A DNA stretch of 64,000 nucleotides from Tridacna crocea (lineage: Eukaryota > Mollusca > Bivalvia > Cardiida > Cardiidae), in NCBI GenBank assembly GCA_943736015.1, contig OX031071.1, positions 36,674,619 to 36,738,618 on the forward strand. Reading direction: 5' to 3'. The notes under the pieces were generated by a model. The model did not search any database. It worked only from the letters and a program-made list of their open reading frames with translations, and had not been told where the DNA came from. This document shows positions 16,485 through 63,763 of this stretch, piece by piece (within the stretch, counting starts at the first letter, position 1; each line of letters begins with the position of its first letter). Position numbers and translations under genes: made by a program.

Positions 16485-16499
16485 TTTCAAGGGGGGTAG
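16485..16499 (+). promoter_or_regulatory. Polypurine tract
   Basis: AAGGGGGGTAG lies immediately before the 3' LTR, the expected primer site for plus-strand synthesis. Confidence 0.75.

Positions 16500-17235: not shown

Positions 17236-17266
<31 letters not shown>
17236..17266. repeat. (CT)n(AT)n microsatellite beside the first Penelope element
   Basis: CT units run into AT units. This abuts the 3' side of the minus-strand Penelope element. A compound CT/TA/GA tract also abuts the 5' side of the second Penelope element (61438-61549). Confidence 0.9.
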
Positions 17267-17344
17267 CAACTGGTTCCGGCTCAAGGATATTACATAAAAA
17301 AGAAGAATAACATCACATGGGAGCATATATCAGTAACATTTATT

Positions 17345-17377
17345 GCCAACCGGTTTCGCTTGAAAGCTCATCAGGGC
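17345..17377 (-). ncRNA. Hammerhead ribozyme motif of a Penelope-like element
   Basis: On the minus strand: GCC, then CTGATGA, a stem GCTT-TC-AAGC, GAA, the self-complementary ACCGGT, T, and GGC. This has the conserved hammerhead core, with stem I GCC/GGC, stem II GCTT/AAGC and a loopless palindromic stem III. That is the minimal form known from Penelope elements, which is thought to act as a dimer. The predicted cut lies after the T before GGC. Confidence 0.7.
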
Positions 17378-17442
17378 AACAATAACAATAAATCACGTAG
17401 CAACGTTACGTTGCTACACACATAACGCAATAATTGATGACG

Positions 17443-18046: not shown

Positions 18047-18249
18047 AAGGTATATATATACCAAACTCACAACTAATCCTACAAAATCATATCACAAACA
18101 CTATTCGACCATTCAAATATATTCAAGATTAGTTTTCCCCATTGTGCAGTCTGATCTTGTTCTTCAAAGTCTATAGAATCATATAACACTGCACTGTATA
18201 GATAGAATTAAATCTTTACCAAACCATAAAATTTTGAACTTAATTTAAC

Positions 18250-18327
18250 TTGAACCCATTACCACACAATCCTTACTTTTAAAGATGCTGAGAAAGAAGA
18301 CTTTAGAAAACATTGTGGGAAAATGAA
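18250..18327. mobile_element. TTAA MITE, left half only
   Basis: AACCCATTACCACACAATCC to GAAAACATTGTGGGAAAATG, then cut off by the repeat element that starts at 18328. The right half is not found on the other side. Confidence 0.75.
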
Positions 18328-19419
18328 ACAAGAGGGCCAAAATGGCCCTGGATCGCTCACCTGAATTTTTGAGAGGACCATAGCCTTTTTTTTTGAAGGT
18401 ATTGAAACACTGGAAATAAAATCACCATTTTGACAAGCAATTTTTAAAAGGTCACCTGTAAAAGTCCTTTCAAAATCTGACCAGCAGTTTCAGAAAAGAA
18501 GAATTTTTAGGAGTTTCTTAATTTCCGTACAGTGCAAGTAGCCCCCATTCACCAGAGCCATGTTTCTTGACCTATCAAAATTTCGCGAACACATTTTGAA
18601 AATGGTCATTCAAGGAATATTTCTGTGAAACAATTTTCAAATCTGACCAGCCGTTTCAGAGGAGAAGAATTTTCAAGAATTTCTTCATTTCCATATAGTG
18701 CAAGTAGCCCCCATTCACCAGAGCAATGTTTCTCGACGAATCAAACTTTCACGAACAATTTTTGAAAAACGGTCACCCAAGGAATATCTCTGTGAAAATT
18801 TTCCAAAATCTGACCAGCCGTTTCAGAGAAGAAGAATTTTTGAGAATTTCTTCATTGCCCTATAGTGCAAGTAGCCCCCATTCACCAGAGCCATGCTTCT
18901 TGAGGAATCAAAATTTCACGAACAATTTTTGAAAAGGGTCACCCAAGGAACATCTCTGTGAAATTATTTCAAAATCTGACCAGCGGTTTCAGAGAAGAAG
19001 AATTTTTAAGAATTTCTTCATTTCCCTAAAGTGCAAGAAGCCCCCATTCACCAGAGCCATGTTTCTTGACGGATCAAAATTTCGCGTACAATTTTTGAAA
19101 AGGGTCACCCAAGGAACATCTCTGTGAAATTATTTTGAAATCTGGCCAGCGGTTTCAGAGAAGAAGAATTTTAAAGAATTTCCTTAAAAAATCCATTTCG
19201 TTGCCATGGCAACCAGAGTTTTAGACGGAATCAAATTCTGTGAACAATTTTTAAAGAGGACCTCCCCAGGAACATTCCAGCCAAGTTTGGTCCAAATTGG
19301 CCCAGCGGTTTAGGAGGAGTTGATGTTTAAAGAATTGTTGACGACGCACGACGGACGACGCACACCGGGTGAACCTAAAAGCTCCCCTTGAGCACGTTGT
19401 GCTCAGGTGAGCTAAAACA
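18328..19419 (+). repeat. AAGAGGGCC/GGTGAGCT modular repeat with about 165-bp internal units
   Basis: Head CAAGAGGGCC..TGGATCGCTCACCTGA and tail GAGCACGTTGTGCTCAGGTGAGCT. Inside, the GACCAGCSGTTTCAGAGAAG unit recurs at about 18478, 18640, 18813, 18978 and 19142 (spacing about 160-172), each with CCCCATTCACCAGAGCCATG. No protein. The same family occurs at 57725-58560, and relatives with the same head or tail but different inner units at 6186, 32204, 35992 and 40490. Confidence 0.8.
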
Positions 19420-19422
19420 AAA

Positions 19423-19838
19423 GAAAGCCTCTTGACAATTGTCGTCCTGGATTAAAAATAGTTTGTTGACCCTTCGTGTTTTTGGTGCTGCAGATTTCAA
19501 AACTTTAACTCTTTACCAAATGACAAAATTATAGACCTGTCCAAATTGAAAGCACTTGCAGACCAAGAATAAATATAACTCAAAAATTGAAATTTGTTTC
19601 CAGTGGGGTAGAAAGCATCTCAAATGGTAGCATTTAAAGGAATGGAAGTTATACTAAAGATAACAATCTGTTGTTATGTGATTTATTCAGATGTTAGTTT
19701 GCAGGAAGGGAAATGAATTATAAAACCTGGCAAAAAGTAAAAAAGAAAATGTTAAAGCCTCTTGACAAGTTTTGTCCTGGATTTACAATACTTTGTTTAT
19801 CCTTTGCATTTTTGGTGCTGCAAGTCTTAAGACTTTAA
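19423..19838 (+). repeat. Direct duplication of an 86-bp segment, each followed by a MITE
   Basis: AAAGCCTCTTGACAAxT..TTTTGGTGCTGCA occurs at 19423-19508 and 19753-19838. Both copies end in TTAA followed by a TTAA-family MITE, in opposite orientation. This is either a tandem duplication of one target with independent insertions, or one MITE that flipped. Confidence 0.7.
19505..19650. mobile_element. TTAA MITE, partial
   Basis: TTAACTCTTTACCAAATGAC then the GACCTGTCCAAATTGAAAGC half. The sequence decays after the GGTAGAAAGCAT position. Confidence 0.7.
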
Positions 19839-20184
19839 CCCTTCACCACACAATCACTGGTTTTTACAACAACGAGATAGAAGCCTTTTGAAAATATTGT
19901 GGGAAAACGAGAAAATGCTGGTTACCAGCATTTTCTCCTTTTCCCGCAATGTTTTCTACTCTGCTGGAAACAAAATTCAACTTTTGACTTATGTTTAGAC
20001 CCTGAGAAAGAAGCCGTTGGAAAACATTTTGGGAAAAGGAGAAATGCTGGTAAGCGGCATTTTCTCCTTTTTCCACAATGTTTTCTACCCTGCTGGAAAT
20101 AATTTTCGATTTTTGAGTTACGTTTAATTTGTTGTCTGCAAGTGCCTACGATTTGGACCAGTCTCAAATTTTATTGTTTGTTAA
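19835..20184. mobile_element. TTAA MITE, one and a half copies in tandem
   Basis: TTAA at both ends (19835, 20181). Two hairpin cores (19903-19955 and 20029-20085) occur in direct order, so the element holds an internal duplication from GACCCTGAGAAAGAAGCC through the CTGCTGGAAA position. Confidence 0.85.
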
Positions 20185-20695
20185 AAAGTTCATATTTTTT
20201 GCAGATAAAAGTCCACAGATGAATGAATTTATTCAACAGATCAAATCCAACTCGGACCTGACAGTTATGTTTGAAAATATCTAGAAAGACGCAGTAGCAA
20301 CATCCTCGGATACGAATATCATGGACACAAGTTGAACACAAAGTTAATCAATTTGTTACCCCGGCTATTTTTAGACATACCACAAGCTGCGAATTGTGCA
20401 GTCTGACTAGGGTCAACAGTTTTGGCTTTTATTATATTTTCTGCATGAAAAATGGTCATTCTACCTTGTTGTTAACATTTTTTAACTATCAACTTAAACT
20501 GACATTCGCTATTGTTGATCTGTTTTCATCTAATTGATGTATGGAATACCCAGATACTCCCTTTTTACATGATGGGTCACATATTTTATGAACAGAAAAA
20601 AATTGTCTTTCTTTTCAATGTTATAGAAAAACGTATCAGAAAAAAGCAATTGAAGGGTTCTTTTTTTTTTCTTAAAGGTGAACAGGTGATGAAAA
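20185..20695. other. No feature recognised
   Basis: AT-rich sequence between a MITE and duplication block 3. No coding or repeat structure that I can support. Confidence 0.5.
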
Positions 20696-21058
20696 TCAAA
20701 GCGTTGAAAACGCTGAAGTGGTATTTGTCAAGGAAATCCATGTGTGGAATTAATAGTTTGGAAGAAACAGAGACATATTGTTCAGATATTGGCTTAAAAG
20801 TCAACCCACTAAGCAAATGAATACCTTTTTGGTTGAAGGGAGAGTATTCATGACAAAGTTTGGTTTATTTTTGTATAAGTGGTCTCCTTTTGATCATGAG
20901 GAAGAAGCAGGAGTAATGCCCCTTGACAGTAGGATGCATGACGAATAGAGAGAAAAATCCTGTTGATATATCGAACAAAATTAAGTTTGTTCCTGAAAAC
21001 TATAATTATGAAATATCTCTAGCCTTTTACATTCATTTTCCAACATTACAATCAGTAG
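20696..21058 (+). repeat. Long duplication, copy A, blocks 3 and 4
   Basis: 20696-20852 (ATCAAAGCGTTGAAAACGC to GTTGAAGGGAGAGT) matches copy B 50636-50793. 20995-21058 (CTATAATTATGAAATATC to CATTACAATC) matches copy B 50802-50862. The roughly 140 bp between them is missing in B. An ORF crosses block 3 (20512-20820) but is broken in copy B and is not recognised. Confidence 0.75.
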
Positions 21059-21985
21059 ACGGTAAGCGATATTTCCATTTTATCGTAAGTGGCGCACCAG
21101 CATTATCACGTGACACCGGACAATCAAAGCATTATTTAAATAACAAATGCCGTATGTCCCGTTCGCAAATCCTTTAAATTTGGACAAATTCATAACTGAA
21201 AAGAAAATGACATAGCAAGAAATCTATGGAAATCAATTCTAACACAATTCAAGCATATTTCATGATATTGCCTTTGAAAAAGAAAATCACAAACAGACAA
21301 AATATGCATTTTATAAAATCGCATTTAAATAAAGAGCATTTAGAGACTAAGAACGGACTTAGCCTCTGAAACCTGTATAAGATTTATAATCCTGACCATA
21401 AATGATAACCAAAGGCGTAAATTAATATGAAACAAAAGATAAGAAGAGTCAATTTAATGTGACACGTGTGTGCTAATCTGTAAGAAGCAAGTACATTACA
21501 GCTGTTCTGAAGGTCACCCACTCTGCAGTGCGATACCGAGATCAAAGGAACACCGATTTAACCCTTCACCCAATTTTTGGTAAGACTTCATTAGATTCAT
21601 ATTTTTTATACTCAAAATGAAGCTTAAAAGAAGTTATGGAAGGTCTGAATTTTGATCTGAAGCCACGTTTCTTTTGTTCACGATCGATAACATAAGTTAT
21701 TCGTCAATATGTACATGCCTGAAAGTGCAACAAGGATGTTTGATAATAGTACTTTAAAATCACTAAATGGACTGTCCCTGTCTTTCTGATGACACTTAAG
21801 AGCTAATCAACCTTTTACCAAAGTATTTTGAGCGACCCGTGTAAAAAGGGGTCAGACGTGCTGATTTGTCCCACTGTCTCTTATTTGTCTCACTTTCTCA
21901 ACCTTAACACATTTCCCCCCCCCCACACACACACTTTCAAAGAACCGAAAACTGAAAGTAATCAATATGTAGTTCATAAACATTT
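21059..21985. other. No gene seen
   Basis: Absent from copy B. It has no convincing ORF; a C-run followed by (CA)n lies at about 21916-21935. Confidence 0.5.
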
Positions 21986-21989
21986 GTGA

Positions 21990-22110
21990 AAAAAAACGAA
22001 TTTTCAAAGTGTGAGCGAAACTATTTGAGGAAAAAAGGAAGGGCTTGCAACATGCATTTCCTCCTTTTTCAACCATACTTTGTTTTTTTTTTTTTACTTT
22101 TTCAAAGACA
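21990..22110. mobile_element. Possible MITE core remnant
   Basis: GGAAAAAAGGAAGGGCTTGCAACATGCATTTCCTCCTTTTTCAACC keeps the shape of the family hairpin with heavy divergence. Confidence 0.4.
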
Positions 22111-22211
22111 ATTACAACCATTTGACCCACGTTTATTCAATTGTCTCCATATGCTAAGTATCTGGACGAGTCTTAAGTGTTGTCGTCGGGTGAAAACATT
22201 CGCATTAACTA

Positions 22212-22437
22212 TTTAAAACCCTATGCCACATAACCCAAGTTTTTTACGACCCTTAGAAATATAGTTTTTTTTTTAAAATGTTGTTGAAAAGGGTTAAAGT
22301 TCTAGTAGCCAACCTTTTCTCCTTTTCCCTTGCTATCCTTCCTAAAGAAAATTTCATTTTTAAGCCACATTCAAATTGTTATCTGCAAAGACTTCCAATT
22401 TGGGCAAGTCTCAAATTTTTGTTTCGTAAAGAGTTGG
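22212..22437. mobile_element. TTAA MITE, old full-length copy
   Basis: CCCTATGCCACATAACCC at the left and TTTCGTAAAGAGTTGG at the right, with ACGACCCTTAGAAA and TTATCTGCAAAGACTTCCAATTTGG in family order. The core is strongly diverged. Confidence 0.7.
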
Positions 22438-23379
22438 TGAAAGATTCAGTGTTATAAAAAATGGGGTGTAGGGGGATAACATCAATATAACTGCAATAGA
22501 CCTTTCCTAATTTTATGTCTGATTATTCAACCAATGTTTGCGTAATTCTGTAGCTAAGTTTGTAACGTACAGGCTCGAAGTCCAGGAATCTGTGGTTTGA
22601 TTTATTTAAACTATTAATGTGATAATTTTTCCAAAAAATCGTTCCAGTATCTGCTAAAAGACAGAGACAGTCTACTAACAAAAAACTGGGACATCAAACA
22701 TTTTGAATTTATAGCAAAATTCTTAACTTTGAAATAACATTTTTAAAAATCTGTAAAGTTGCATGTTTGCCATGTTCCTGTTTGAACTACCTTATAAGTT
22801 GACTATCGTAATAACAAAGTTTAATTCAAATTTCAAACCTTCCATTCCCTCTAGAAGAAAAGATGTTACAGATTCATTTTCAGGAAGCGAATACGTGCTA
22901 TACTTATTTTCATTGAAAAGCTATTCAAGGGTTAGCTGGGTGTACGTTTGATCTCAGTGTTTCACCGTCAAAGTGGATGATCTATTTGAAAAGCTGTTGT
23001 GTTCTTTTTAGGCACCGACTTACTAGTTAACACACACATGTCATAATTAAGTGTTTATCCCGTTTAGTCTTACGTTGATCAATTGTAAAGGTTTGGAATT
23101 GTTAAAAGCTGTGACGGAGGGTAAGTCTGTTCTAATTACTGGCGCCAAAAGATGCATTTTTCTGCCTGAACATTTTTTTTTCAAATGAATTATGTAACCT
23201 TGGTTAACAGGTCCCACTTTAAACGGTATATTTGCACTAATTTCTTTAGGAATGGAGGGGGGTATTTGTTTAAGTTAAACCTTATCTTACTAAATATATT
23301 AAATGCCATTTTTAAAGCCAATAGTAAAACCTCAAAAGTTATTTCAAAGGAATATCTTAAGGAAAAATATCTCCGTATC
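22438..23379. other. No gene seen
   Basis: AT-rich sequence not present in copy B. The short ORFs at 22763 and 23185 have no recognisable features. Confidence 0.5.
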
Positions 23380-23482
23380 GGATAGTGTAGATCTAGGATC
23401 AGACTGCACGTTCTTCCTGGTGTGATCTGAATCTATATTGTCTGCAAAAGGTCATTGAGTCGCACTTGGTAGCCAAAGGGTT
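23380..23482. repeat. Short palindromic repeat, GATCAGACTGCAC type
   Basis: GTGTAGATCTAGGATCAGACTGCAC faces a decayed inverted arm (GGTGTGATCTGAATCTATATTG). Related copies are at 48629-48730 and 53905-53990, with fragments near 18140, 20390, 40140 and 44940. Confidence 0.6.
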
Positions 23483-23802
23483 AATGCAGTCTGCATATAA
23501 AAAGTTCTATCAACACGCCCGGCAGGAGACAGCGCTTATAAATGATACCGCTTTACTCTCTGAAATCTACCGAATAATTGATAAAACAACGGTACTTTTT
23601 TGTGCGTGTCTTCGAAAAAGATAATTGATGAAACTAACGGCACGGCCGTTTTAGGTTGTTTATTTATCGCGTTTAGTGTGTAATCCACTTAAAAAATATG
23701 ACACTTTCACTATTCGGGTATATACAGGATTGTGACAAATTGTCGGGTGGAAAGGGAAGTAACTCGTGGTGACGCGTCAGTAACGGTATTTGGCAAATGG
23801 TC

Positions 23803-23990
23803 TATTACCTCGATCTATAAATATTCATGAGCAATCAAATGGAGTAACGTGCAATCATAGGACCAACAAGCCATGGAACGAATTGGTTTTGGAACGAAAA
23901 AGCCCAAGGTCAGTTGGCAAATTTGTATCATTTCGCGAGAAGCTAGTTTCAATCAAAAATAATTATCTCAACGATCGATAGCCTCGCCCA
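23803..23990 (+). repeat. Long duplication, copy A, block 5
   Basis: TATTACCTCGATCTATAAATATTCATGAGC through GATAGCCTCGCCCAA matches copy B 50860-51053. The match ends at the TA that begins the next element. Confidence 0.82.
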
Positions 23991-23991
23991 A

Positions 23992-25661
23992 TACATGGAT
24001 CCGTGGAAATCGATATTTGACCAATCAGGACATCGCATTTATTCTACCCGATGTCCTACCTTGGTTTCTGCTATTTCGGCTCACAAATAAACTACTGTTA
24101 AGGTTGGAAGAATGCAATTCTCTTTATTTATGTTGTGTTTTTAACGTTTGAATTTTAAAAAAAAGCTTAAAAAATGTGCTTTGCGAACGTGTACCGATGA
24201 CGTGAGATCACGCAGAGGCTATAGACAAGTTTAAATTGTGATGATTACTGAAAATTTGAACTTATGCAAAGAGCTGATCAGCGCTGGATAATGGATTTAT
24301 TCAAAGTATTCTATATTTTTTCCTCTCTGAAAGAGAAAACTGAAAAAAAAGGTAAAAATAGACCTCTATGAAGTATTAATAAAAAAAAATACTTTTACTT
24401 GAATATTAACCTTGTTCAATAACCTATGCACATCCACTTAGTGGCCGCATAACTTGTCATCAATGTTTCAATTTGACATTAATCTTAACCCATGGTGCAT
24501 GAAGAACATGCTGAATGTGTTCTGGGATCGCATATACCATCTCTGATGTGTAGATATAGATCAGATTGCAAATTACATGATGATTAGTCTTGGATTTAAA
24601 GAACCTGCTGATTACAATAAGCACTTTGACTCACTAGGAGTATATTTCAATTTTTAAAAAAAAGTCTAACTTCTGATCTGGTGGAACTTGGAAATTTTTC
24701 TCTTGACTTGATGTTTTAACCGTTTACCACATAACACCGAGTTTTAACAACCCGTAGAAAGCTTTTAAAAGCATTGCGGAAAAAGGAGAAAATGTTTGTA
24801 ACATTCATTTTATCCTTTTCTCACTGTGTTTTGCGCTCTTTCAAAAACAAATTTCAATTTTTGAATCATTTATTTTGTTGTCTGCAAATAATTGAGTTTG
24901 GTTTGCTCAAAAAATTTTGTCATTTGGTGACAAGTTTAAATGGATTAGCACATCTGCACATTAGCACAAAGGGTGTGTTGGTAAACTGTTAATTTGATAG
25001 GAAGTGGGTTTGATTGCAAAGCAAATTACCGCTCTAATCAACTTGACCACCCGTTGTCATCAGTATATCATATGCTACCGTCAGTGATATTAACAATTTT
25101 CTTAATTGACAACACACTTGACACATTTTATAATCATCAAACAACCCTTTTCCCCCTAACATAATATTGAAATTTTTCATTAACTTAAACGTCTCTGTTT
25201 AATCAGACATTCTATAAACTTTTCGAAAGACTTGTAATTCAGTGTTATTTAATTTGGTATGATGCTGAGATGACTTTACTAGCCTAACGAAAGCAATAAG
25301 TATCGTTAATTCTATTAATTTGTGGCAAAACGGAGATTTGTTGATGTTTTTCATATGTTCAAATTTTTGTTTAAACATGTAAATCTGTTACATTGTACGT
25401 CGCCCCCGATATTCGCCCTTTGAATACATCTCCGTATGTAAATTAGTTAAGCATCTTTAAATTGCTTACTGAGAATTTATCATCGATAGAAATATATGAT
25501 TAAAGTACTTTTTCAGGAATTTTATTGAGAGAAACAGTCATGACAGCACGATTTAAGTGGCCTATCTGCTATACTGTATATGTATTGACTACGTTTGTTT
25601 GTGAGACCTTGGCAACAGTAACTAAGGTAGTCGGTTTATCTTATCGCCACGGATCCATGTA
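23992..25661. mobile_element. TA-flanked TIR element (Tc1/mariner-like, non-autonomous)
   Basis: TACATGGATCCGTGG at the left is the exact inverse of CCACGGATCCATGTA at the right, with TA at both boundaries. Copy B reads straight across this place (GCCCAATGTATCTTAATATG). No transposase is visible. A TTAA MITE (24716-24932) is nested within it. Confidence 0.72.
24716..24932. mobile_element. TTAA palindromic MITE
   Basis: TTAACCGTTTACCACATAAC at the left, hairpin core (AAAAAGGAGAAAATGTTTG) and TTTGTCATTTGGTGA at the right. It is nested inside the TA-flanked element. Confidence 0.8.
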
Positions 25662-25772
25662 TGCATTTTAATATGCCATTTCAAATTACATATTTGAGTG
25701 ACACCGTAAAAGTCATTTGCCTGAGAAAAAATGACTTTAACTGGGTTTATTTCCTTCGGTTTTGCACAAAAT
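25662..25772 (+). repeat. Long duplication, copy A, block 6
   Basis: TTAATATGCCATTTCAAATTAC to CTTCGGTTTTGCACAAAAT matches copy B 51056-51166. Confidence 0.8.
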
Positions 25773-26216
25773 GGTTGAACTAAAACTGTACAAAGTTTGG
25801 GTACGCTGTCTCGGTATAGACTCTAAAGAGTTTGGGTACGCTATGACAAAATGGATACGCTGGCATATGTAGAAATATGTATCATATAGAAGATCTGCAA
25901 ATCAAGATTGAAATTGAAATGTCGCCCTAGATAGCTGCAAATTATGAAGAAAATGGCAATATTCATGTATTTAAATTGAACTACTTTATGCCAAGTTTTA
26001 TATTCTTACCACCTAAAGCCCGGGACCTTTCGGAGGTTGATTAATTTATCAGTGTCATTGACGACTATGGAATGCCAAAGCAGAAAATATTCAAGATATA
26101 AAAACACTATCAAGATATTTGAAATATTCAATCAAGATAGTCGCAATTATACCTAAATGATATAAAAAATTGATATATGAAAGTAAAATTATCATATCAA
26201 AACATAGAACCACTTC

Positions 26217-26573
26217 AAGACAAATAAATATACTTCAAGATGTAAAAACAGCATCAACATTCTAAAAAACTACACTGGGCTAGACAAATAAATATGCTTC
26301 AAGGTGTAAAACAGCATCAACATTTTAAAAACCACACCAAGACAAATATATATACTTCAAGATGTAAAAACAGCATCAACATTTTAAAAACCACACCAAG
26401 ACAAATATATATACTTCAAGATGTAAAAACAGCATCAACATTTTAAAAACCACACCAAGACAAATAAATATACTTCAAGATGTAAAAACAGCATCAACAT
26501 TTTAAAAACCACACCAAGACAAATAAATATACTTCAAGATGTAAAAACAGCATCAAGATTTTAAAAACTACAC
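26217..26573 (+). repeat. 59-bp tandem repeat, left arm
   Basis: About six units of CAAGACAAATAAATATACTTCAAGATGTAAAAACAGCATCAACATTTTAAAAACCACAC-type sequence (shown here only by its start CAAGACAAATAAATATAC and end AAAAACCACAC). Inner units are nearly identical and the outer ones diverged. Confidence 0.9.
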
Positions 26574-26630
26574 CAAGACTCACGTGACCAATCAAGACTC
26601 ACGTGACCACAAAATCCATGACGTCATCAC

Positions 26631-26760
26631 TTGGCGAAAAGAACGTACACACACTGCTGCTGCTTGACTGTTGGCAGTCACACTGTCATTTTTATTCGGC
26701 GTATTCACTTTATTCATTGACCACCCCAAGATCTTAAAAACACCACAGTTTTGTAAAATT
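26631..26760. other. Start of the loop of the inverted-repeat element
   Basis: No feature beyond the boundary with the left arm. Confidence 0.3.
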
Positions 26761-26985
26761 TTAACGGTTCACTACACAATCTCGTCTTATAAGAACTCTG
26801 AAGAGCAGGCTTTTGAAAACACTGTGGAAAAAGGAGAAAATGATGGTAACCGGAAGAAATATTCCGCAATGTTTTCTAGCCCCTCACCGACAGAAATCGT
26901 TATTTCAGCACTGATTAATTTGTCGTCTAGAAATGCTTTGAAATTGATCAAATCCGAAAATTTGTCATTTAGTAAGGAGCTGACA
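26761..26985. mobile_element. TTAA MITE in the loop
   Basis: TTAACGGTTCACTACACAATC at the left, GAAAACACTGTGGAAAAAGG in the arm and TTTGTCATTTAGTAAGGAG at the right. The core palindrome is partly lost. Confidence 0.78.
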
Positions 26986-27034
26986 GAAATATGAGTGTAA
27001 GCCTTGACCACATGTATTATCCTTAGTTTTAAAC

Positions 27035-27140
27035 TTCCTGTTAGATCTAGTCTTTTGAAAACATTGTTTGAAAAGGAGAAAATCCTGGTAACCAGCATTT
27101 TCTCCTTTTTCCACAGTGTTTTCTATCCAACTGGAATGAG
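27035..27140. mobile_element. TTAA MITE, central part
   Basis: GAAAACATTGTTTGAAAAGG, the CCTGGTAACCAGC core, and CCACAGTGTTTTCTATCC. The ends are not recognisable. Confidence 0.7.
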
Positions 27141-27199
27141 AAATCATGATTCTTACATGATTAATGGCTTCTATACATGCTTTCAGTTTGATCATTAGA

Positions 27200-28005
27200 G
27201 TTGATATGAATGATTAACTTGATCTTAAATCTACTGGATTGCATTCGATGCATTGTTCCGGTAAACTGTGGAAAGGTCATGACCTTTTAGTTTCGCATTT
27301 GCAAATGGGCTTTATTTCATATTTTTCAATCATTCAGGGCACCAGTATCAATCCGAACCTTCAAATCTACAGTCAAATCTTGCCTTTTCTTAATGGCCAC
27401 CTCGAATATTTCACGTCTAACTAAATACGCTGACACCATGATGTAGCCTCGAGTGTCCGTATTCCTTGATGATAAGGAAACAACTTGATGACATTAAGAA
27501 ATGATACCAGAATATGAGCTAGAAATTACTTGCTTTCACAAAAAATCATTTCTGGTCACTTTCATATGAAAATAATAACTTAGATAACTATTTTCATGTT
27601 CACTGTGCATAAATAATGAACATACGGTCGGCCTTTGAATGTGCAAACATGGCATGACCCAATTCCGGTAGCTCGGTATTATTTACAGCAGAAAGTCGAC
27701 GATCTTTGTATTTTTTAAGAAGAAACACTAATCTAATGCTCTAACATCAAGAAAAAAGGAGTCGATTTCTTTAATATAAGTTTGTTTTTTTTCTTGTGTA
27801 TTTGTCTTGTATTTGTCTGAAATTCAAGGACAATGAGACATTGGAATATTACTAAGGGTTACCAGCAGAAATATCGTGTGATGTCATCAAAACATGCCCT
27901 GTACGAGATGTACACAAAAATCACCGGTTCAAGGACACTCACGGAATAAGGCCACTTGACGATACTAGGCCTACACACTACACTGGAGCATAATTATCGT
28001 GGTAC
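27200..28005. other. No gene seen in the loop of the inverted-repeat element
   Basis: No recognisable coding or repeat content other than AT-rich tracts. Confidence 0.45.
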
Positions 28006-28061
28006 GGCGAGTGATGTCATGGATTTTGTGGTCACGTGAGTCTTGATTGGTCACGTGAGTC

Positions 28062-28370
28062 TTGGTGTGGTTTTCAAAATGTTGATGCTATTTTTACATC
28101 TTGAAGTATATTTATTTGTCTTGGTGTGGTTTTCAAAATGTTGATGCTGTTTTTACATCTTGAAGTAGATCTATATTTATTTGTCTTGGTGTAGTTTTTA
28201 AAATGTTGATGCTGTTTTTACATCTTGAAGTATATTTATTTGTCTTGGTGTAGTTTTTAAAATGTGGATGTTGTTTTTACATCTTGAAGTATATTTATTT
28301 GTCTTGGTGTAGTTTTTAAAATGCTGATGATCAATTTTTACATCTTGAAGTATATTTATTTGTCTTGAAG
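28062..28370 (-). repeat. 59-bp tandem repeat, right arm (inverted)
   Basis: About five units in the inverse orientation to 26217-26573 (GTCTTGGTGTGGTTTTCAAAATG .. TTTTTACATCTTGAAG). One unit has a short insertion. The ORF on the minus strand here (28198-28632) is read through these repeats. Confidence 0.9.
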
Positions 28371-28618
28371 TGGTTTTATATATCATTTTGGTGTAATTGA
28401 GACTATCTTTATTGAATACTTTAAATATTTTGATAGTGTTTTTATGTCTTGAATATTTTCTGCTATGGCATTCCATAGACGACCGACTTTTTTTGAAAAG
28501 GGCTGAGTTATTACACTTTAAATTACGTTTTTCAGCCCGTCTGGCTTTTTTTTTTGCGATAAAAGAGCATGTAATCATTGCTTTGTCTGTTTGTATGTGG
28601 TTAGGAGAGAGAACGTAG

Positions 28619-28757
28619 TAATGATATTCCAAAGCGTTTGAAGCATTTTCAAGCTACAAACATGCGGGATATTCCGGCAAAATTTAAGCCGGAACTACTT
28701 GAACTCAATCTCTTTCTACTGCTGTGTACCTAAACGCGATGGAGTATTAGATTCACG
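28619..28757 (-). repeat. Inverted partner of 1447-1588
   Basis: The reverse complement matches 1447-1588 over about 140 bp, including AAGTAGTTCCGGC, TGCCGGAATATCCCG and CAAACGCTTTGGAAT. Confidence 0.7.
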
Positions 28758-28765
28758 GTACAGAA

Positions 28766-28800
28766 TAAGATACATGGTTATCAAAATTCAATCTTGAACT
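28766..28800 (+). repeat. Long duplication, copy A, block 7
   Basis: AATAAGATACATGGTTATCAAAATTCAATCTTGAACTCAT-type sequence (start AATAAGATACATGGTT) matches copy B 51164-51205, and is the last shared piece. Confidence 0.7.
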
Positions 28801-28924
28801 CATTGTGGTATTGTCTTCGACAAATACCACAAAAACCAAGTTGTTGTTATGAGCAATTAGTCGTTTTATTTACCAAATGAGTATTAGATCTTTTAAAATT
28901 TATAAAGAAACGAGATTCTCCATT

Positions 28925-38680: not shown

Positions 38681-39990
38681 TAGAGCTATCCTTCAACGTG
38701 ATCATACCCCCACCAGCTCCTTGCCACCAAACAGGTCTTTGTCACAGAATGCAGAATGGTTGAGTACAAAAGTAAGAGTTGAACAAGAGCGGCAAATTGT
38801 TGCATGATACGCCCGTCTTACCCCATGCACCGGACAAAATTCAAGTATGAAACACGACAAAGGGCAACAACTCAAAAATAATCCAGCAAGAGTTATGATT
38901 CCTGTGCTCTGCACTCCCCCTAGATGAGATCTATCCATCCATGAAATTTCATAACCCTAGCTAGTATAGTTCTGGAGATACGCTCCGGACAAAATTCAAG
39001 TATGAAAAAAACAAACAAGGGCAATAACTCAAAAATTAGGGAAACAGAAGTTATGATTCCTATGCACTGCACTCCCCCTTGATGAGATCTATCCACCCAT
39101 GAAATTTCATAACCCTAGCTAGTATAGTTTTGGAGATATTCACCGGACAAAATTCAAGTATTAAAAACGACAAAGGGCAATAACTCAAAAGTTAAGCGAG
39201 CAAGAGTTATGATTCCTGTGCACTGCACTCCCCCTTGGTGAGATCTATCCACCCATGAAATTTCATAACCCTAGCTAGTATAGTTTTGGAGATACGCTCC
39301 GGACAAAATTCAAGTATGAAAAACGACAAAGGGCAATAACTCAAAAATTAAGCGAGCAAGAGTTATAATTCCTGTGCACTGCACTCCCCCTTGGTGAGAT
39401 CTATCCACCCAAGAAATTTCATAACCCTAGCTAGTATAGTTATGGAGATATGCTCCGGACAAAATTCAAGTATAAAAAACAAGAAAGGGCAATTATTCAG
39501 AAATTAAGCGAGCAAGAGTTATGATTTCTGTCCATTGCACTCCCCCTTGATGACATCTATCCACCCATGAAATTTCATAACCCTAGCTAGTATAGTTTTG
39601 GAGATATGCTCCGGACAAAATTCAAGTATGAAAAAGAGATTTGTCCAGAATCATCAAAGGGCCATAACTCCATGAAACCTAAATAAACCATAACCAAAAT
39701 ACGATATGCACATCTCTGCTTGATACTGAGTCTTTTTGTGTAGTTTGAACCAAATCTGTCCAATAGTTGATGAGAAAAAGAGCGGACAAGAAATTTCATG
39801 AAAGGGCCTAACTCAGTGAAAAATCAATGAACCATAACCAACATTTCATATGCACATCTCTGCTTAATACTGAGTTTACCTGTGAAGTTTGAATAAAATT
39901 CGTCCAGTAGTTTATGAGAAATAGAGCGGACGAAAAGCTACAGACTGACGGACGGACTGACCGACAAGCTGACTCCTATATATCCCCCAA
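38680..39990 (-). repeat. Modular element with 156-bp tandem units
   Basis: CCGGACAAAATTCAAGTATG recurs at about 38830, 38985, 39142, 39299, 39455 and 39611 (spacing 155-157). Each unit has GGGCAATAACTC and GCACTGCACTCCCCCTTG. It ends with a GACGGACGGACTGACCG tract and TTTTGGGGGGTATAAT. No protein is encoded. Confidence 0.85.
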
Positions 39991-43133: not shown

Positions 43134-44247
43134 AAGAGCTTCGCAGAGCGGCGCATATACGCCCGAAGGGGCTTGTCAGTAAAATGAGTTGCATTGATGG
43201 ATGGGCCATGAATGAAGAGTAGTTATTCTCCATGATATGTGAAAAATATTAAAGGGCAATAACTAAAAATATAAGGGTGGCAAAGTTACAAATTTTGTGA
43301 ATTGCTCTATCTGTCTTTGAAGGTCCTAGATCATATCTTTTATATTTTAGAAATTATGGCCTAGACGAAAATTCAAAGTTAAAATGGCAATAACTCAGAA
43401 GGAAGGATGGCAGAGTTATGGTTCTTGTGCAATGCACTTCTTCATAATGTGTTCTATTAGTCTTTGAAGTTTCAAGATGATGGATTTTGAAGTTTGGAAG
43501 TTATGGTCTTCACAAAAATTCAAACTGAAAAATTAACTAAGGGCAATAACTCAAAAAAATAAAAGTGGCAGAGTTATGGTTCATGTGCAATGCACTTCTC
43601 CATAATAAGTTCTATCAGTGTATGAAGTTCCAAGTTAATAGCTTTTATAGTTTAGAAGTTATGGCCTGGACAAATATTCAAACTGAAAATTAACAAAGGG
43701 CAGTAACTCAAAAAAAATAATGGTGGCAGAGTTATGGTTCATGTGCACTGAACTTTTCCATAATGTGTTCTATCAGTGTATGTAGTTTCAAGTTGATACC
43801 TTTTACAGTTTGGAAGTTATGGCCTGAACAAAGATTCAAAGTGAAAATTAACAAAGGGCAATAACTCAAAAAATATAAGTGGCAGAGTTATGGTTTATGT
43901 GCACTGCACTTCTCCATTATGTGTTCTATCAGTGAATGCAGTTTCAAGTTGATACCTTTCATAGTATGGAAGTTATAGCCTGAACAAAAATTCAAAGTAA
44001 AAAGTTGGTTATTCCAGAAATCAGGGGCAGATAATTTTAGAATGCAAACAGCGATCCAAATTCTAAGACCAGGTGCACAACTGGGCATCATGGAGATTCA
44101 TTGTGGCAAGTTTCAAATAATTCTGATGGAAAATGTAGGAGGACTTGCACACACAAGAAATTGCTAACGGTCGGACGGACTGACGGACGGACGACGGAAA
44201 CCAAGCCGTGACATAAGCTCTGCTGGCTGAAAGCCAGTAGAGCTAAA
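43134..44247 (+). repeat. Modular element with about 157-bp tandem units
   Basis: Head AACAAGAGCTTCGCAGAGCGG..GCCCGAAGGGGCTTGTCA; five units with GGGCAATAACTC and GTGGCAGAGTTATGGTTC; tail with GACGGACTGACGGACGG and the palindrome CTCTGCTGGCTGAAAGCCAGTAGAG. A minus-strand copy lies at 58561-60590. Confidence 0.85.
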
Positions 44248-45542: not shown

Positions 45543-47297
45543 CTATTGTAGTTGATAAACTGACAAAACATTTCCTTCAGATTTACCCCACATATGGCTG
45601 ATATAAAGTTTGTTTTCTGTTTCACAATATGTCACTGACTGTTGAAATTTCATTCCTTGTGTTTGATCCAGTAATATTTGTATGGGTCTACACTGTGTAG
45701 ATATCTGGTGTATGTTGTGTGAGTCATATCCAGCTATATAAATATTATCATATCTATCTACAGTCAGACCATATGGATACTTCAGGTTAGTATCTCTGTA
45801 AACATTTTGAACTTTACCCTTGAAATCCACACTTGTCACAGTGTTTGTCTGATAGTCACTAACAAATAGTGTAGACTTGGAATTACTAAGACAAATATAG
45901 TCTGGACATTTAAACAGAGGTTGTCCATTTTGGTCTGTAGAAAATGTTTTCAATATTTCTCCATGTAGACTGATTAATTTAACAGCAGGTTCTGGTTTAT
46001 CAAATGACACAAATAATTGATTATCATTAAAAATAATTCCTCTACAGTCTCCATTAACTTGAAGTTCTTTGTTTACAGTCAAAGTCTGTCCAACATTTAC
46101 AAAAACTAATTTATTGTTACATGTAATGACAAGCTGACTTTTATCAATACAAGTAACATCCCATGGTTGTGTGGAAAGTTTTAGATAAGATAGAATACTG
46201 TTACTGTCAACATTTACAAGTTTTACACTGGAGTTGTGACAATCTGTTACAGCTATTCTGTATGGATCTATCATTACACTGCTTGTAATATAACAGACAT
46301 TTTTATCTTCTGAATGTTTAACATTGATTTGTCCTACATAACTGGCTCTAACAGATTTGGGATCTTTGTTGACCAGCTTTACATGTTTTTTCTCTTTTCT
46401 CTCCATCTCTGTTTTTCCTCCCTCCTTCTCTCTATCCAATAATGTACCAAGATTGAACATAGATTGAAGTAAATGTAGTATTTCCTCATTTTTGTGAAAT
46501 TGATAATTTCTAATTTTGTTTTGACTGGATATGTCCGCCATTTTGTGTTCTAAGTTAGAAATCAGGGTTTCAGCTTTCTTTGCAGAGATCACCAACTGTC
46601 GCTGTTGCTTGTATTGTTTATGTTTGTCTAAGTTAGAGACAATTTCATTGATGTCTGTGGTCATTGTATCACACGTTGTAGACACAGTTTGAGCAGCTTT
46701 CTTATCAAACTCCTTCACATCCTGGGCTTCTTTCAAAATGGTTGTTTCCATGGAATCTAGAAGTTTGTTGATTTCTGCACGAAATGATTTCACATCCGAT
46801 ATAAACTTGGTGTGCACTGTTTGTAAATCTTGGTTGTGTCTTGTGGAAGCTTTCTTTATATATTTTAACTGTTGTAGAAGACTTGTAATTTTCTCTGTTA
46901 AAAATATGTAATCTGGACTTGTGTCAAAGTCTTGCGCAATGTCTTCTATGTATTCTATAGAACAAGTTTTGTGTTCAACAGTCAAACAAACACCGCAAAA
47001 AAAGTTTTTATGCATCTTACAATAGTACTCCAATATTTTTCCTTTGTGTAACGAACAGACATTTTCTGCTGTTGAGACAAGCTTTTGTTGCGGCATTTCA
47101 TCTCCGTTCAAAGATTTGTGATTTCTTGATAACTTTGACATCTTATGTACCGAACAACAATTATTACAGAAAAATTCGTCACAGTCCACACAGTAATGTT
47201 TAGCATTTATAGTTTTGTTCAATAATAAACAGGGATCACATTGAACACCTGTTGTTGTGTTGGCACTCCCTGTCTGATTTCTGCCTGACACTTCCAT
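45543..47297 (-). CDS. RING-less TRIM-type protein: two B-boxes, coiled coil, beta-propeller
   Basis: This is an intact 584-residue single-exon ORF. A first B-box-like zinc module spans about residues 20-62 (CDPC, CVDC, FFCNNC, SVH), and a second about 80-113 (CSLH, YYCKMH, FFCGVC, EH). A long coiled coil follows (about 130-290), then an acidic/basic linker and a C-terminal region (about 325-584) of short repeated beta segments such as PYGLTVDRYDNIYIAG, typical of the NHL/six-bladed propeller of TRIM2/3/71-like proteins. There is no RING domain before the B-boxes, so ubiquitin ligase activity of its own is unlikely; it may act as a scaffold or oligomerise with RING-bearing relatives. Bivalves have large families of such intronless-coding TRIM genes, some induced by infection; a role in immunity is inference. 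The ATG at 47297 is the first in frame and follows a possible splice acceptor. No frame damage is seen. Confidence 0.92.
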   Translation of the reverse strand: MEVSGRNQTGSANTTTGVQCDPCLLLNKTINAKHYCVDCDEFFCNNCCSVHKMSKLSRNHKSLNGDEMPQQKLVSTAENVCSLHKGKILEYYCKMHKNFFCGVCLTVEHKTCSIEYIEDIAQDFDTSPDYIFLTEKITSLLQQLKYIKKASTRHNQDLQTVHTKFISDVKSFRAEINKLLDSMETTILKEAQDVKEFDKKAAQTVSTTCDTMTTDINEIVSNLDKHKQYKQQRQLVISAKKAETLISNLEHKMADISSQNKIRNYQFHKNEEILHLLQSMFNLGTLLDREKEGGKTEMERKEKKHVKLVNKDPKSVRASYVGQINVKHSEDKNVCYITSSVMIDPYRIAVTDCHNSSVKLVNVDSNSILSYLKLSTQPWDVTCIDKSQLVITCNNKLVFVNVGQTLTVNKELQVNGDCRGIIFNDNQLFVSFDKPEPAVKLISLHGEILKTFSTDQNGQPLFKCPDYICLSNSKSTLFVSDYQTNTVTSVDFKGKVQNVYRDTNLKYPYGLTVDRYDNIYIAGYDSHNIHQISTQCRPIQILLDQTQGMKFQQSVTYCETENKLYISHMWGKSEGNVLSVYQLQ

Positions 47298-49614: not shown

Positions 49615-49742
49615 CTAATAAATTAAAATGGTCTAACTTGAAAACGGCTACAGATGGCAAAATAATTCTCCGCTACAGCTTACAGACAGCATAATAAACC
49701 TAACTCAAAAATTAAAATGTTTCGGGCAGGGAAGAAAACATT
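49615..49742. mobile_element. TTAA MITE, left half, cut at copy B
   Basis: TCTAACTTGAAAACGGCTACAGATGGCAAAAT through GAAGAAAACATTGTGG (family order). The MITE stops where copy B of the duplication begins. Confidence 0.6.
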
Positions 49743-51220
49743 GTGGACACTATTTCTATGAGGCTTGTGTGGTATTCTTCAAATCTTGCTCCTATTCTTT
49801 AATAAATCAAGCCACATGTAACGTTATCTGTAGAGTAACGAAGTAACAAAACCTAAGGTACCAAACAACCTGGGTACTAAATGACCAGAAAATCATTAGC
49901 ATTATCCCTTATGGATAAATAAATACCTTAATTACCGTTTAAGGCTCATTTTAGTGCATTCTATATCTTGTTCAGATAAAAAATTGATTTAGAACTTATC
50001 ATTTTTTTCCAATTTATCAGCAGCATATTTATTTCATTCAATTTACTTCCGGGTTTGGAAAATCCATTATTTGTGCAGAACCTTTTAAGCCTATATTCTA
50101 TTGTTTATGTTAAAATTACCTGATCACTTCCAACTTTTGTTTATCGCAGACTGTGTTGGCAGGATAATCATCTAATAAAAAGCCGAATCGATTATGCCAA
50201 GACTCGTTTATTTCCTAGATCTTACTATTTTTGACAGGGATGTTATCTACAGCGTGAAAATAAAACTCCACAGCATTTGGGTTGAATGCACTCTAAAGCG
50301 TTTGGGTTAAAGTAGTTCCAGCATAGATTGTACCGGAATATCCCGGCTGTTTGCGGCTTGAAAAAGCACCTTCAAACGCTTTGGAATTTTAGTTTCAACT
50401 CACAGGAAAACGCTAGACTTGTGCAAATCCAAGGGATTTGCAGATGGCAATTTAATTCAGGCTAAAATGACAGAATTTGTGTTGCAGGGTCGTTTCCTTC
50501 CCTTTAAAGTTGATATGGGTGGGTTCTTTATTTTTGGGGAACTCCAGGAAAGTGATACATGTACATTAAAGTTTCTTTCTATCCCTTAATCATTTTACTT
50601 CAGAGTCCGAACATCTCTACCCTGAAAAGTTATGTAATCAAAGCGTTGAGAACTCTGAAGTGGTATTTGTCAAGGAAACCCATTGTGTGGAATTAACAGT
50701 TTGAAAGAAAGAGACATATTGTTCAAATATTGGCATAAAAGTCAACCCACTAAGTAAATGTATAACTTTTCGGTTGAAGGGAGAGTGCTCGTGTACCTTA
50801 AATCTATAATTTTGAAATATCTTTAGCCTTTTACATTTAATTTCCAACATTACAACCAATTACTTCGATCTATAAATATTCATGAGCAATCACATGGAGA
50901 AGCGCGCAATCATAGGACGAACAAGCCATGGAACGAATTGGTTTGGAACAAAAAAGTAGTCAAATTTGTATCATTGCGCCAATAAAAGGCTATGAGCGAT
51001 AGAAGCTATTTTCAATAAAAAATAAGTATCCCAACGATCGATGGCCTCGCCCAATGTATCTTAATATGCCATTTCAAATTGCATATCTGAGTGCTACCGA
51101 AAAACTCATTTGCCTGAGAAAAAAAGAGTTTATCACGGATTATTTCCTTCGGCTTTGCACAAAATAAGATACATGGTTGTCAAAATTCAATCTTGAACTC
51201 ATAATCATTTTGAACAAATT
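49743..51220 (+). repeat. Long duplication, copy B (compact mosaic)
   Basis: Seven pieces match copy A in the same order and orientation: 148-1758 (without the foldback insert), 5366-5435, 20696-20852, 20995-21058, 23803-23990, 25662-25772 and 28766-28800. They are joined directly here within about 1.5 kb. At three joins the missing copy A material is bounded by transposon ends with target duplications (9 bp, TTAA, TA). Copy B therefore keeps the pre-insertion sequence there. The other joins could be insertions in A or deletions in B. Confidence 0.85.
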
Positions 51221-57724: not shown

Positions 57725-58560
57725 AACAAGAGGGCCAAGATGGCCCTGGATCGCTCACCTGAATTTCTGGGAGAACTATAGCCATTTCTTTCAAAATGTA
57801 ATCAGCCATTTCAGAGAAGAAGAATTTATGAGAATTTCTTCATGTCTGTATAGTTTAAATAGCTTACAGCCATCAGAGCCATGTCTCTTGATGGATCAAA
57901 ATTTCTAGAGCAATTTTTGAGAAGGGTTAGCCAAGAAACATTTCTGTGAAAAAAATTCAAAATCTGATCAGCCGTCTCAGAGAAAAATAATTTCTTCATG
58001 GCCAAATTGTGCAAGTAGCCCCCATTCACCAGAGCCATGTGTCTAGATAAATCAGCATTTTGCGAACAATTTTTGAAAAGGGTTACCAAAGGAACATTTC
58101 TGTGAGATTATTTCAAAATCTGATCAGCCGTTTCAGAGAAAAAGAATTTTTAAGAATTTCTTTATGGCCAAATAGTGCAAGAAGTCCCCATTCACCAGAG
58201 CCATGTTTTTTGATGCATCAAAATTACATAAACAATTTTTAAAAAGGGTCATTGAAGGAACATTTCTGTGAAATTATTTCAAAATATGACTAACGGTTTC
58301 AAATGAGAAGAATTTTTAAGAATTTATTTATTTCCCTATAGTGCAAGTAGCCCCCATTCACCAGAACCGTGTTTCTTGACTGATCAAAATTTCGCGAACA
58401 CCTTTTGGAAAGGCCGGGTTATCCAAGGAACATCTACGTGAAATTATTTCAAATTCTGACCAGCGGTTTCAGAGAAGAAGAATTTTTAAGAATTTCTTAA
58501 TTTCCGTATAGTGCAAGAAGCCCCCATTCACCAGAGCCATGTTTCTTGACGGATCAAAAT
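57725..58560 (+). repeat. AAGAGGGCC modular repeat, sister of 18328-19419
   Basis: Head AACAAGAGGGCCAAGATGGCCC and five units with CAGCCGTTTCAGAGAAGAAG and CCCCATTCACCAGAGCCATG. It breaks off at GGATCAAAATTTGATTTC, where an unrelated modular repeat starts on the other strand. Confidence 0.8.
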
Positions 58561-59110
58561 TTGATTTCTGAAATAACTAACTTTTCACTTTGAATTTTTG
58601 TTCAGGCCATAACTTCCATACCATAAAAGGCATCAACTGACATACACTGATAGAACACATTATGGAGAAGTGCAGTGCACATGAACCGTAACTCTGCCAC
58701 CGTTATTTTTGAGTTATTGCCTTTTAATAATTTTCAGTTTGAATTTCTGTCCAGACAATTACTTCCAAACTATAAAAGCTATTAACTTGGAACTACATAC
58801 ACTGATAGAACACATTATGGAGAGGTGCAGAGCGCATAAACCATAACTCTGCCACCTTCATTTTCTGAGTTATAGCCCTTTATTAATTTACATTTTGAAT
58901 TTTTGTACAGTCTATAACTTTCAAACTATAAAAGCTATTAACTTGGAACTTCATACACTGATACAACACATTATGGAGAAGTGCAGTGCACATGAATCAT
59001 AACTCTGCCACCTTTATTTTTTGACTTATTGCCCTTTGTTAATTTTCTGTTTGAATTTTTGTAAAGACCATGAGTTATTGCCATTTGTTAATTTTCATTT
59101 TGAATTTTTG

Positions 59111-59910: not shown

Positions 59911-60590
59911 GAACTTCATACACTGATAGAACACATTATGGAGAAAAGCAGTACACAACAATCATAACTCTACTGCTCTTATTTTTTTAGTTGTTGCCCT
60001 TTGTTAATTTTCAATTTGAATTTTTGTCCAGGCCATAACTTCCAAACTACAAAAGCTATTAACTTGGGACTTCTTACACTGATTGAATACATTATGGAGA
60101 AGTGCAGTGCACATGAACCATAACTCTGCCGCCTTTATTTTTTGACTTATTGCCCTTTGTTAATTTTCTGTTTGAATTTTTGTAAAGACCATAACCTCCA
60201 AACTTTAAAATCCATCATCTTGAAACTTCAAAGACTAATAGAGCACATTATGAAGAAGTGCATTGCACAAGAACCATACCTCTGCCACCCTTCTTTTTCA
60301 GTTATTGCCCTTTGTTAGTTTTCACTTTGAATTTTCGTCTGGGCCATAATTTCTAAAATGTAAAAGCTATGATCTTGAACCTTCAAAGACTGACAGAACA
60401 CCTTTGGATAAGAGCAATTCAGAAAATTTTAACTGTGCCACCCTTATTTGTTTAGTTATTACCCTTTAATATTTTTCATATATCATGGACAATAACTACT
60501 TTCCATTCATGGCCAATCCGTCATTCCAACTCATTTCACTGACAAGCCCCTCAGCATGATGATGTGCTATTTTGGATTTTCTCCCCAAAT

Positions 60591-61569: not shown

Positions 61570-63763
61570 AACTTTTATCCTAAAACACCACATTTCGATC
61601 GCGGCCGACTTATAAAAGACAACAAATCTTTTAGCAGACGCCTCAGATTAAAGTCACACTTTTCAAAAGCAGAACCTATTTATGACAATAGCTCTGCACC
61701 ACTTGATGAATCGACAAACAGCCCACCGTCAAATCTCAGTTCCAAGGAAAGCCCATATCATTCCCAGTCTGAGGATACGAAATATCCAAAATTCAGAAAC
61801 AAGAGCACATGGGAGCCACCAAAACAGTCCGTTGCTCTAGAGACCTTCATTCACAACGTTAAGTCCGATGTTGCTTCTTCAATCTCGCAGACTAGATCCC
61901 GGGAAAATATGACCAAAAAAGAAAAAGTAGCGCTTCGAACCTTGAAAAGCAAGACGGACATAGTCATAAAACCCGCAGACAAAGGTTCAGCAGTCGTGGT
62001 CCTAGACAAAGAACACTATATTTCTGAAGCATAACGTCAATTAGGAGACCGACAGTTTTATAAGCCATTGGACTATGATCCAACATTAGAATTTCAATCA
62101 AAAGTCACCAAAACTCTCAATAAAGTGCTTAATTTGGGTTACATAAGTGAAGAAAATTTTGACTATCTCTGTGTACCACAACCAAAGGCAGGAAGGTTCT
62201 ACCTTCTCCCCAAAATACACAAGACTGGTAATCCAGGTCGTCCCATTGTATCCGCGAATGGTCATCCAACTGAACGGATTTCGGAATTTGTGGACCATCA
62301 TCTGAGACCTTTTGTAGAAGAGCTACCATCATATGTACAAGACACGACGGATTACCTAAAAAAAGTGGAGTCTAATCCACTCCCAAACGAAACAATTCTA
62401 GTGTCACTTGATGTAACGTCTCTATATACAAATATTCCCCATGAAGACGGAGTAGCAGCCTGCAAAGAGGTCTGGGATAGCAGGGAAACTAAAGTTCCTC
62501 CAACAGAAATACTTATTGAACTTCTCCTCCTTGTATTGAAGTGTAACAATTTTGAATTCAATGAAAAACACTATCTCCAAATACAAGGCACAGCAATGGG
62601 CACAAAAATGGCCCCATCATACGCCAATGTCTTCATGGGACACCTGGAGAAACGGTTACTAATGTCTGTACCACTTACATATATCTCTGGCTGCGTTTCA
62701 TTGACAACATTGACATGCAATGGTGTCATGGGCAACAAAACTTACAAACTTTTTTAGAAATAGCCAATAATTTCCACCCTACTATCAAGTTTACTAGTGA
62801 TATATCAAATGAACAGCATATTTTTCTTGACACTGTTTCGAGGATCGAGTCTGGCAAGCTGATTGTAGATTTATACTCAAAACCAACAGACAAACATCAA
62901 TATCTTTTACCCTCTAGTTGTCATCCAAAACATTGTATCCAAAACATACCCTATAGTATGGCTCTACGGATAAGAAGAATATGTTCTAGAGACTGTGATT
63001 TCCAAGTCCGCGCCAACGAATTGTCAAAACAGCTCCAGAGTAGAGGATCACATCTATCACCAGTGCCATTTCAAAGGCAAACGCTACCCAAAGGAAAGAA
63101 CTTCTCAAGTATAAAACAAAACCAAGTCAAAGTGACAGAATTCCCTTTGTTGTCACTTACCATCCTGACATGCCAAAAATACACAAAATACTTGAACAAC
63201 ACTGGCCAAAAATTGAATCCTCGAGTAAATTAAAAAGAATTTTCCCAGAAAAACCATTGGTGGCTTACAGGAGACCAAAAAGCCAGAAGGACATTCTTGT
63301 GCGTGCAAAACTAAACTCCCAAGCCAATCCAAACACGCTTGGGTATTCAGGTCCGTGCAATACATCGCGCTGTCAGACTTGCAAAATTATGCGTTCTTTG
63401 CAAACATTCAAATCTATGCTTGGGGCTACGTCTTCTATCAAAGGCACTTTCAGTTGCAAAACAATGAATGCTGTTTACCTAATCACCTGCAAGGCATGTA
63501 AAAAGCAGTATGTAGGTGAAACTAAACAGGCATTGAATAAGCGAATGAATCTGCACCGCTCAGACTGGAAGACCCGCAAATTTAACAGATCTCCTGTTGC
63601 AGAACACTTTAGCGCAGCAGGACACTCTTTTGAGGATGTAGAACTATGCGTAATTGAGGCCAAAGAGACATGGTCTGACTCACAGCGAAAGGAACGTGAA
63701 ACCTATTGGATAAGGAGACTATGTACAGTTCAACCGTCGGGAATCAACAAAAACGATGTTTAA
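61570..63763 (+). pseudogene. Penelope-like element, reverse transcriptase plus GIY-YIG endonuclease, broken
   Basis: The N-terminal part is readable from about 61575 and has the Penelope signature DIVIKPADKGSAVVVLDKE just before TAA 62032-62034. The frame from 62068 carries [28 protein letters not shown] (motif A) and [18 protein letters not shown] (motif B). A shift near 62670 moves the reading to the frame with motif C, which reads FIDN: the second catalytic Asp is Asn (AAC 62706-62708). A second shift near 63135 leads into the endonuclease part: a Cys cluster (CNTSRCQTCK) and the GIY-YIG core (AVYLITCKACKKQYVGETKQALNKR), ending at TAA 63761. The order is right for the family. At least one stop, two frameshifts and a catalytic substitution make it inactive. 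Confidence 0.9.

Follow-up and report, generated by a model that had tools for sequence, protein, structure and literature searches.

The two collinear copies in this window (the whole 64-kb stretch of DNA that we analyzed, C16:36674619-36738618 in a genome of 1.05 Gb and 31 contigs) are best explained, with a probability of roughly 0.95, as two lineages, A and B, of one duplicated segment with lineage-specific inserts, joined in appearance by a separately landed transposon, a non-autonomous Helentron (HINE), that mimics the remainder of one expanded segment. An initial annotation had read copy A as a compact segment expanded by inserts, and this reading stands up to position 5437 and falls from 20694 on. 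The 28-kb, almost twenty-fold expansion that it proposed is unsupported: the segment itself went from ~0.9 kb to 5.3 kb, and an element of ~0.6 kb, separate from it, reached 8.1 kb.

The ordered, co-oriented blocks on which that annotation relied are real. Using blastn and block alignment within the window, we recovered eight blocks of copy A (145-280, 1067-1758, 5366-5437, 20694-20845, 20988-21054, 23804-23992, 25661-25772, and 28760-28803) that match copy B (49741-51202) at 77-92% identity for the first seven and 95% for the short final one; because the E-values range from 0 to 5e-14 (blastn of B against the window), a chance match is excluded. The match first described as a single block at 148-1758 was confirmed, but it comprises two blocks, since A carries a further insert at 281-1070, bounded by a 9-bp target duplication. 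Transposon ends or target duplications are likewise present, as had been claimed, at several of the joins in A: a 9-bp duplication at 280/1071, a TTAA duplication at 1758/5366, inverted ends (ACATGGATCCGTGG) at 23993/25660 and an imperfect 7-bp duplication (ACAAAAT/ACAGAAT) at 25772/28767. Inspection of the joins 20845/20988 and 21054/23804 gave no convincing target duplication.

The two halves of B differ in their distribution across the genome, the first 893 bp belonging to a local array and the last 568 bp to a dispersed repeat. The features of the first half and of its counterpart in A are as follows:

148-280, plus strand: copy A segment, piece 1 (11 of 133 sites differ from B)
281-1070, plus strand: 790-bp insert, a dispersed repeat with ~199-bp inverted ends and the 9-bp target duplication CGAAATGAC
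1071-1758, plus strand: copy A segment, piece 2 (62 of 680 sites differ from B)
1759-5365, no strand assigned: TTAA-flanked MITE with a nested insert (225-269 bp in seven other A-type copies read)
~1826-5199, no strand assigned: 3.4-kb insert nested in the TTAA MITE, with inverted ends CACAGTATATAAACG and a probable AAAAT duplication
5366-5531, plus strand: copy A segment, piece 3, extending beyond 5437/5438, the site of the HINE in B-type copies
5532-5751, no strand assigned: second TTAA MITE, of the same kind as the first (224-bp gap in the window's A and in L014)
49741-50637, plus strand: copy B of the paralogous segment (from blastn, the genome search and the tree)

All 57 listed matches of the segment (49743-50635, 893 bp; best 40 of 648 candidates scored) fall within 1.65 Mb of C16 (36.676-38.327 Mb), and copies occur there in both orientations. 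In having many copies of one segment within this interval and in either orientation, the array resembles other local segmental duplication arrays. As each genome search scored the best 40 candidates, the copy counts given here are lower bounds, and further places beyond the 1.65-Mb array are possible. Sorted by identity and gap pattern, ten copies are B-type (94-100% identical to B) and 13 are A-type (86-91% to B, with the TTAA gap, or contiguous in two of them); L018a (90%, with a B-like left flank) and other more divergent or partial matches were left unsorted. We read ten of the 13 A-type copies (the window's A and L009-L017) and, whole or in part, all ten B-type copies (L001-L008, L018b, and L019, some of which were re-extracted as L020-L026). 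A and B are paralogues: in the segment tree the A copies form a clade with a support of 1.000, and distances, with L018a left out, are 5.8-9.2% from A to B, 0.5-5.6% within A and 1.6-4.6% within B, the divergence between the A and B segments being 8.3%. L018a fits neither lineage well; it differs by 7.5-12.1% from the other copies and, over a small overlap, by 20.1% from L018b. Part of the segment also recurs, inverted, at 28626-28757 (132 bp; 81% identical to A, 77% to B), at the right end of a 3.0-kb insert described below.

For the blocks up to 5437, B does represent the insert-free state of the segment. The 790-bp insert is found in one of the ten A-type copies read, that of the window, being absent from the nine others and from all eight B-type copies that are readable at this site (L004 and L018b are not). 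Elsewhere the element is dispersed, and its 40 scored places (best 40 of 1878 candidates) are 98-100% identical with their ~199-bp ends inverted; at C15:10806332-10807918 and C8:12615182-12616761 it occurs as pairs in the same orientation exactly 9 bp apart, in line with a 9-bp duplication. Its long inverted ends and 9-bp duplication liken it to the long-TIR MITEs with duplications of this length, which we take to be Mutator-like. Of the ten A-type copies read, eight carry the TTAA MITE, five with 225 bp, two with 265-269 bp and the window's with 3607 bp; three further A-type copies, for which coordinates only are available, have gaps of 221-225 bp, so that 11 of 13 carry a TTAA insert. All ten B-type copies have a single TTAA and no insert. 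L009 and L010 lack the MITE, their site reading TTGA, yet the tree groups them with L012 within the A clade (support 0.742); the MITE may have been lost there, or the tree or the timing may be wrong. With its TTAA duplication and short inverted ends (CCCATTACC/GGTAATGGG), the element resembles TTAA MITEs, presumably piggyBac-like or of another TTAA superfamily. The 790-bp long-TIR element and the TTAA MITE with its nested 3.4-kb insert together make up an approximately six-fold expansion of the A segment. At the place of the second TTAA MITE, six of the ten A-type copies read have none, and L009 and L010 have larger, other inserts, their intervals between the equivalents of A 5525 and 5757 holding 765 and 2339 bp, respectively, beyond the empty state, at or near the second-MITE place.

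The last 568 bp of B (50636-51203) are matched over 566-568 bases, at 93-100% identity, in all 40 scored places on 15 contigs (best 40 of 4665 candidates), and this second half is therefore a dispersed repeat. The blocks from 20694 on thus turn out to be what the initial annotation had named as evidence against itself, high-copy repeats found elsewhere, near full length in 40 of 40 scored places; they are not part of the same segment, but a second copy of this dispersed transposon at its own site and with its own empty sites. The two copies and the inserts in A's copy are as follows:

20694-28830, minus strand: A's separate HINE copy, ~0.6 kb, interrupted four times
20846-20987, no strand assigned: 142-bp insert in A's HINE, no clear duplication, common to L052-L055
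21055-23803, no strand assigned: 2.75-kb insert in A's HINE, no clear duplication, first 46 bp common to L052-L055
23993-25660, no strand assigned: 1.67-kb insert in A's HINE, with the inverted ends given above and a probable TA duplication
25773-28766, no strand assigned: 3.0-kb insert in A's HINE, imperfect 7-bp duplication, with 59-bp tandem repeats in opposite orientation
50636-51203, minus strand: B's own HINE, without the terminal 26 bp kept in five other B-type copies

Judged by its sequence features, the ~0.6-kb repeat is built like a non-autonomous Helentron. Read on the minus strand, it runs from a T-run through a subterminal inverted repeat (subTIR; GTGGTATTTGTC) with a complementary repeat and a second subTIR (GACAAATACCAC) to a palindrome and the end GATT. 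The subTIRs are 12 bp long, within the 11-15 bp expected, and each is exact in 18 of 24 dispersed copies; the complementary repeat beside the 5' subTIR would form a hairpin in the 43-base end (-11.8 to -12.1 kcal/mol with RNA parameters and without a shuffle control); and the palindrome near the 3' end (AGCGTT-CTC-AACGCT, minus strand) has a 6-bp stem. An A-rich run adjoins the HINE end in 22 of the 24 copies examined, the end in the other two not being located by the script, and the empty sites described below fit insertion into such an A-run without target duplication, the exact base being ambiguous. Features of HINE/DINE-1 elements (non-autonomous Helentrons) are listed in excerpts of PMC4067079, and those of the oyster Cg_HINE in excerpts of PMC7492417; for placing a family, PMC4067079 uses as its criterion a match of at least 80% across the terminal 60 bp. 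As far as these excerpts go, the repeat shares with HINE/DINE-1 elements, including Cg_HINE and Pearl, the 12-bp subTIRs, the complementary repeat beside the first of them, the palindrome near the other end, the T-run (an A-run on the plus strand), the lack of a clear duplication and the many copies; it differs in that no central tandem repeats were seen in this ~0.6-kb family. Tandem arrays with units of 156-166 bp do occur in the window (18468-19182, 38825-39635, 43408-44003, 57874-58562, 58582-59068, and 59912-60478), a size like that of the ~160-bp central repeats of bivalve Pearl elements (PMC7492417, in excerpt).

The site of B's HINE lies at A 5437/5438. Eight of the ten A-type copies read (the window's A, L009-L012, L014, L016, and L017) are empty of the HINE and pass from 5437 directly into A 5438+ (AAAACGACA...), and L011 and L013-L016 are collinear with A, apart from inserts, to ~10,040-10,086 at 91-99% identity. 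The HINE start is present in all ten B-type copies, and in six of these (L003, L004, L005, L008, L018b, and L019) A 5438+ resumes at the HINE distance. The full HINE end and junction were read in five of the six (L018b, L019, L008 as L020, L003 as L024, and L004 as L023), where the HINE end GTGGTATTGTCTTCGACAAATACCAC gives way to AAAAAACGACAC or a close variant of it, the sequence of A 5438+; in L005 the spacing of anchors agrees with the same arrangement. In the window's B and in L002 the terminal 26 bp of the HINE are lost along with the sequence beyond, and L006 and L007 gave no reading past it. Because A 5438+ continues directly in A-type copies and after the HINE in B-type copies, the HINE is an insertion into the B-type copies at this point. 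Conversely, 5438-20693 is not an insertion into the segment, as had been supposed, since A 5438+ is the native continuation in both lineages; at the join 5437/20694, where a single expanded segment would have only inserted DNA between neighboring blocks, both flanks have other native continuations.

A's HINE occupies a different site, which is also found empty. A search of the genome with its left flank (20200-20693) gave 41 matches (best 40 of 3267 candidates), from which 12 loci were extracted, the window's included. Five of the 12 are filled (L051, which is the window, and L052-L055), each with the HINE start, the 142-bp insert and the first 46 bp of the 2.75-kb insert; the remaining seven (L056-L062), i.e. 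seven of the 11 other paralogues, are empty, the left flank GGTGAAC...GATAAAA or GATGAAA being joined straight to CCAAGTTG, A's right flank. The duplicated field of this flank is far larger than the 1.65-Mb array: 31 of the 41 matches spread over ~14 Mb of C16 (29.2-43.3 Mb), a few of them being two parts of one copy, and the other ten are ~200-bp pieces, nine on other contigs.

The two HINEs share no substitutions. Compared with a consensus of 24 dispersed copies, which were the best matches to B's copy so that the consensus leans towards B, the window's A HINE and the consensus of six B copies have 33 A-only, 19 B-only, and no shared substitutions (indels left out). The A and B HINEs differ by 9.8%, with a divergence of 2.7-13.4% across the individual blocks. 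Given that this value is close to the 8.3% between the segments, a HINE that entered just ahead of the A/B split could also have left no substitutions in common. What decides is the empty sites rather than the substitution count, and at the two sites seen here they exclude a pre-split insertion. The HINEs of A and B landed independently.

These observations bear on three other ways of reading the window. The strict order and orientation of all blocks, together with the real target duplications at several joins, invite the original interpretation of a compact segment of less than 2 kb that nested transposons enlarged to 28 kb in A, with B as the ancestral state. We consider this very improbable and reject it for everything after 5437, as A 5438+ is what follows the HINE site in A-type and B-type copies alike, A's HINE has empty sites of its own, and the HINEs have no substitutions in common. 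The exon-like sizes of the ordered blocks could equally suggest that B is a processed retrocopy, with exons joined, of a gene in A whose introns correspond to the gaps; we likewise reject this reading, the least probable of all, because splice-type (GT-AG) ends are absent at the joins, transposon inverted ends and duplications occur at several of them, and the longest open frame across B is 75 aa, inside the segment, with none convincing.

A third possibility is that a HINE entered A 5437/5438 before the A/B split and was then cleanly lost from the A-type copies, A's second HINE being unrelated. Two closely related A-type copies of the ten, L013 and L015, carry in this A-run, and in the orientation of B's HINE, another Helentron-like element, 2.1-2.3 kb long (~1569-3705 in L013 and ~1817-4126 in L015, on the reverse complement of the extracted stretch), so that the site may have a longer history. 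Like B's HINE, this element has the outer letters AATCAAAG with a palindrome after them; near its other end, a search for a 15-base terminal inverted repeat found none (best 9 of 15). However, the A-run has no footprint in eight of the ten A-type copies read, and clean loss is not expected of rolling-circle elements, which leaves an earlier insertion with subsequent loss distinctly improbable. We also regard it as rather doubtful, if less so, that Helentron-type elements prefer the A-run at 5437/5438 as a landing site or have reused it repeatedly; if they did, its reuse could reflect the end-directed replacement of one Helentron by another instead of two blind hits.

We therefore return to two lineages and two separate HINE landings, for which the following history can be proposed, the modes of transposition being those suggested by the element ends. 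A non-coding 893-bp segment would have multiplied in a 1.65-Mb duplicated array, with A and B as two of its lineages. After their split, the TTAA MITE would have entered A-type copies, and the window's A copy would have gained the 790-bp long-TIR element and the 3.4-kb insert inside the MITE. B-type copies would have received a ~0.6-kb rolling-circle HINE; a second member of this dispersed family would have landed at a separate position 15 kb downstream, within an A-type unit, where four inserts later broke it up. A's HINE follows the segment in a matching orientation, so its pieces line up, in the right order, after the blocks that are truly paralogous, and the whole looks like a single long expanded segment. 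The case is well resolved but ordinary, a local duplication plus nested transposons. It illustrates that a high-copy element which inserts twice, downstream and with matching orientation, can pass for an ancestral segment that transposons have torn apart, and that such cases are resolved by paralogous empty sites. The array, in which 20 segment copies were read and insertions differ in how widely they are spread, usefully documents transposon layering in nature, if of a familiar kind.

The types of repeat in the window would suit a bivalve mollusc. An Rfam scan of the window gave no match at gathering scores. A Pfam scan of 18 ORFs (the ORF at 17446 included in two lengths, and the short frames of the blocks themselves outside the set) found no family in eight of them, a weak HTH_Tnp_4 match below the cut-off, one B-box protein and the transposon domains of Ty3-type (integrase, reverse transcriptase, and RNase H), GIY-YIG (with a weak reverse transcriptase match) and Tc1/mariner-type (helix-turn-helix and DDE) pieces. 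At 11769-16272, a Ty3-type integrase lies upstream of a reverse transcriptase in one frame (11769-14561), with reverse transcriptase and RNase H continuing in the next ORF, an order that we take to recall Gmr1-like elements. A weak reverse transcriptase match below the family cut-off is followed by GIY-YIG at 62068-63760, presumably the domain order of Penelope-like elements, and an uninterrupted frame of 584 aa with the B-box match, which we assume to be TRIM-like, extends over 45546-47297.
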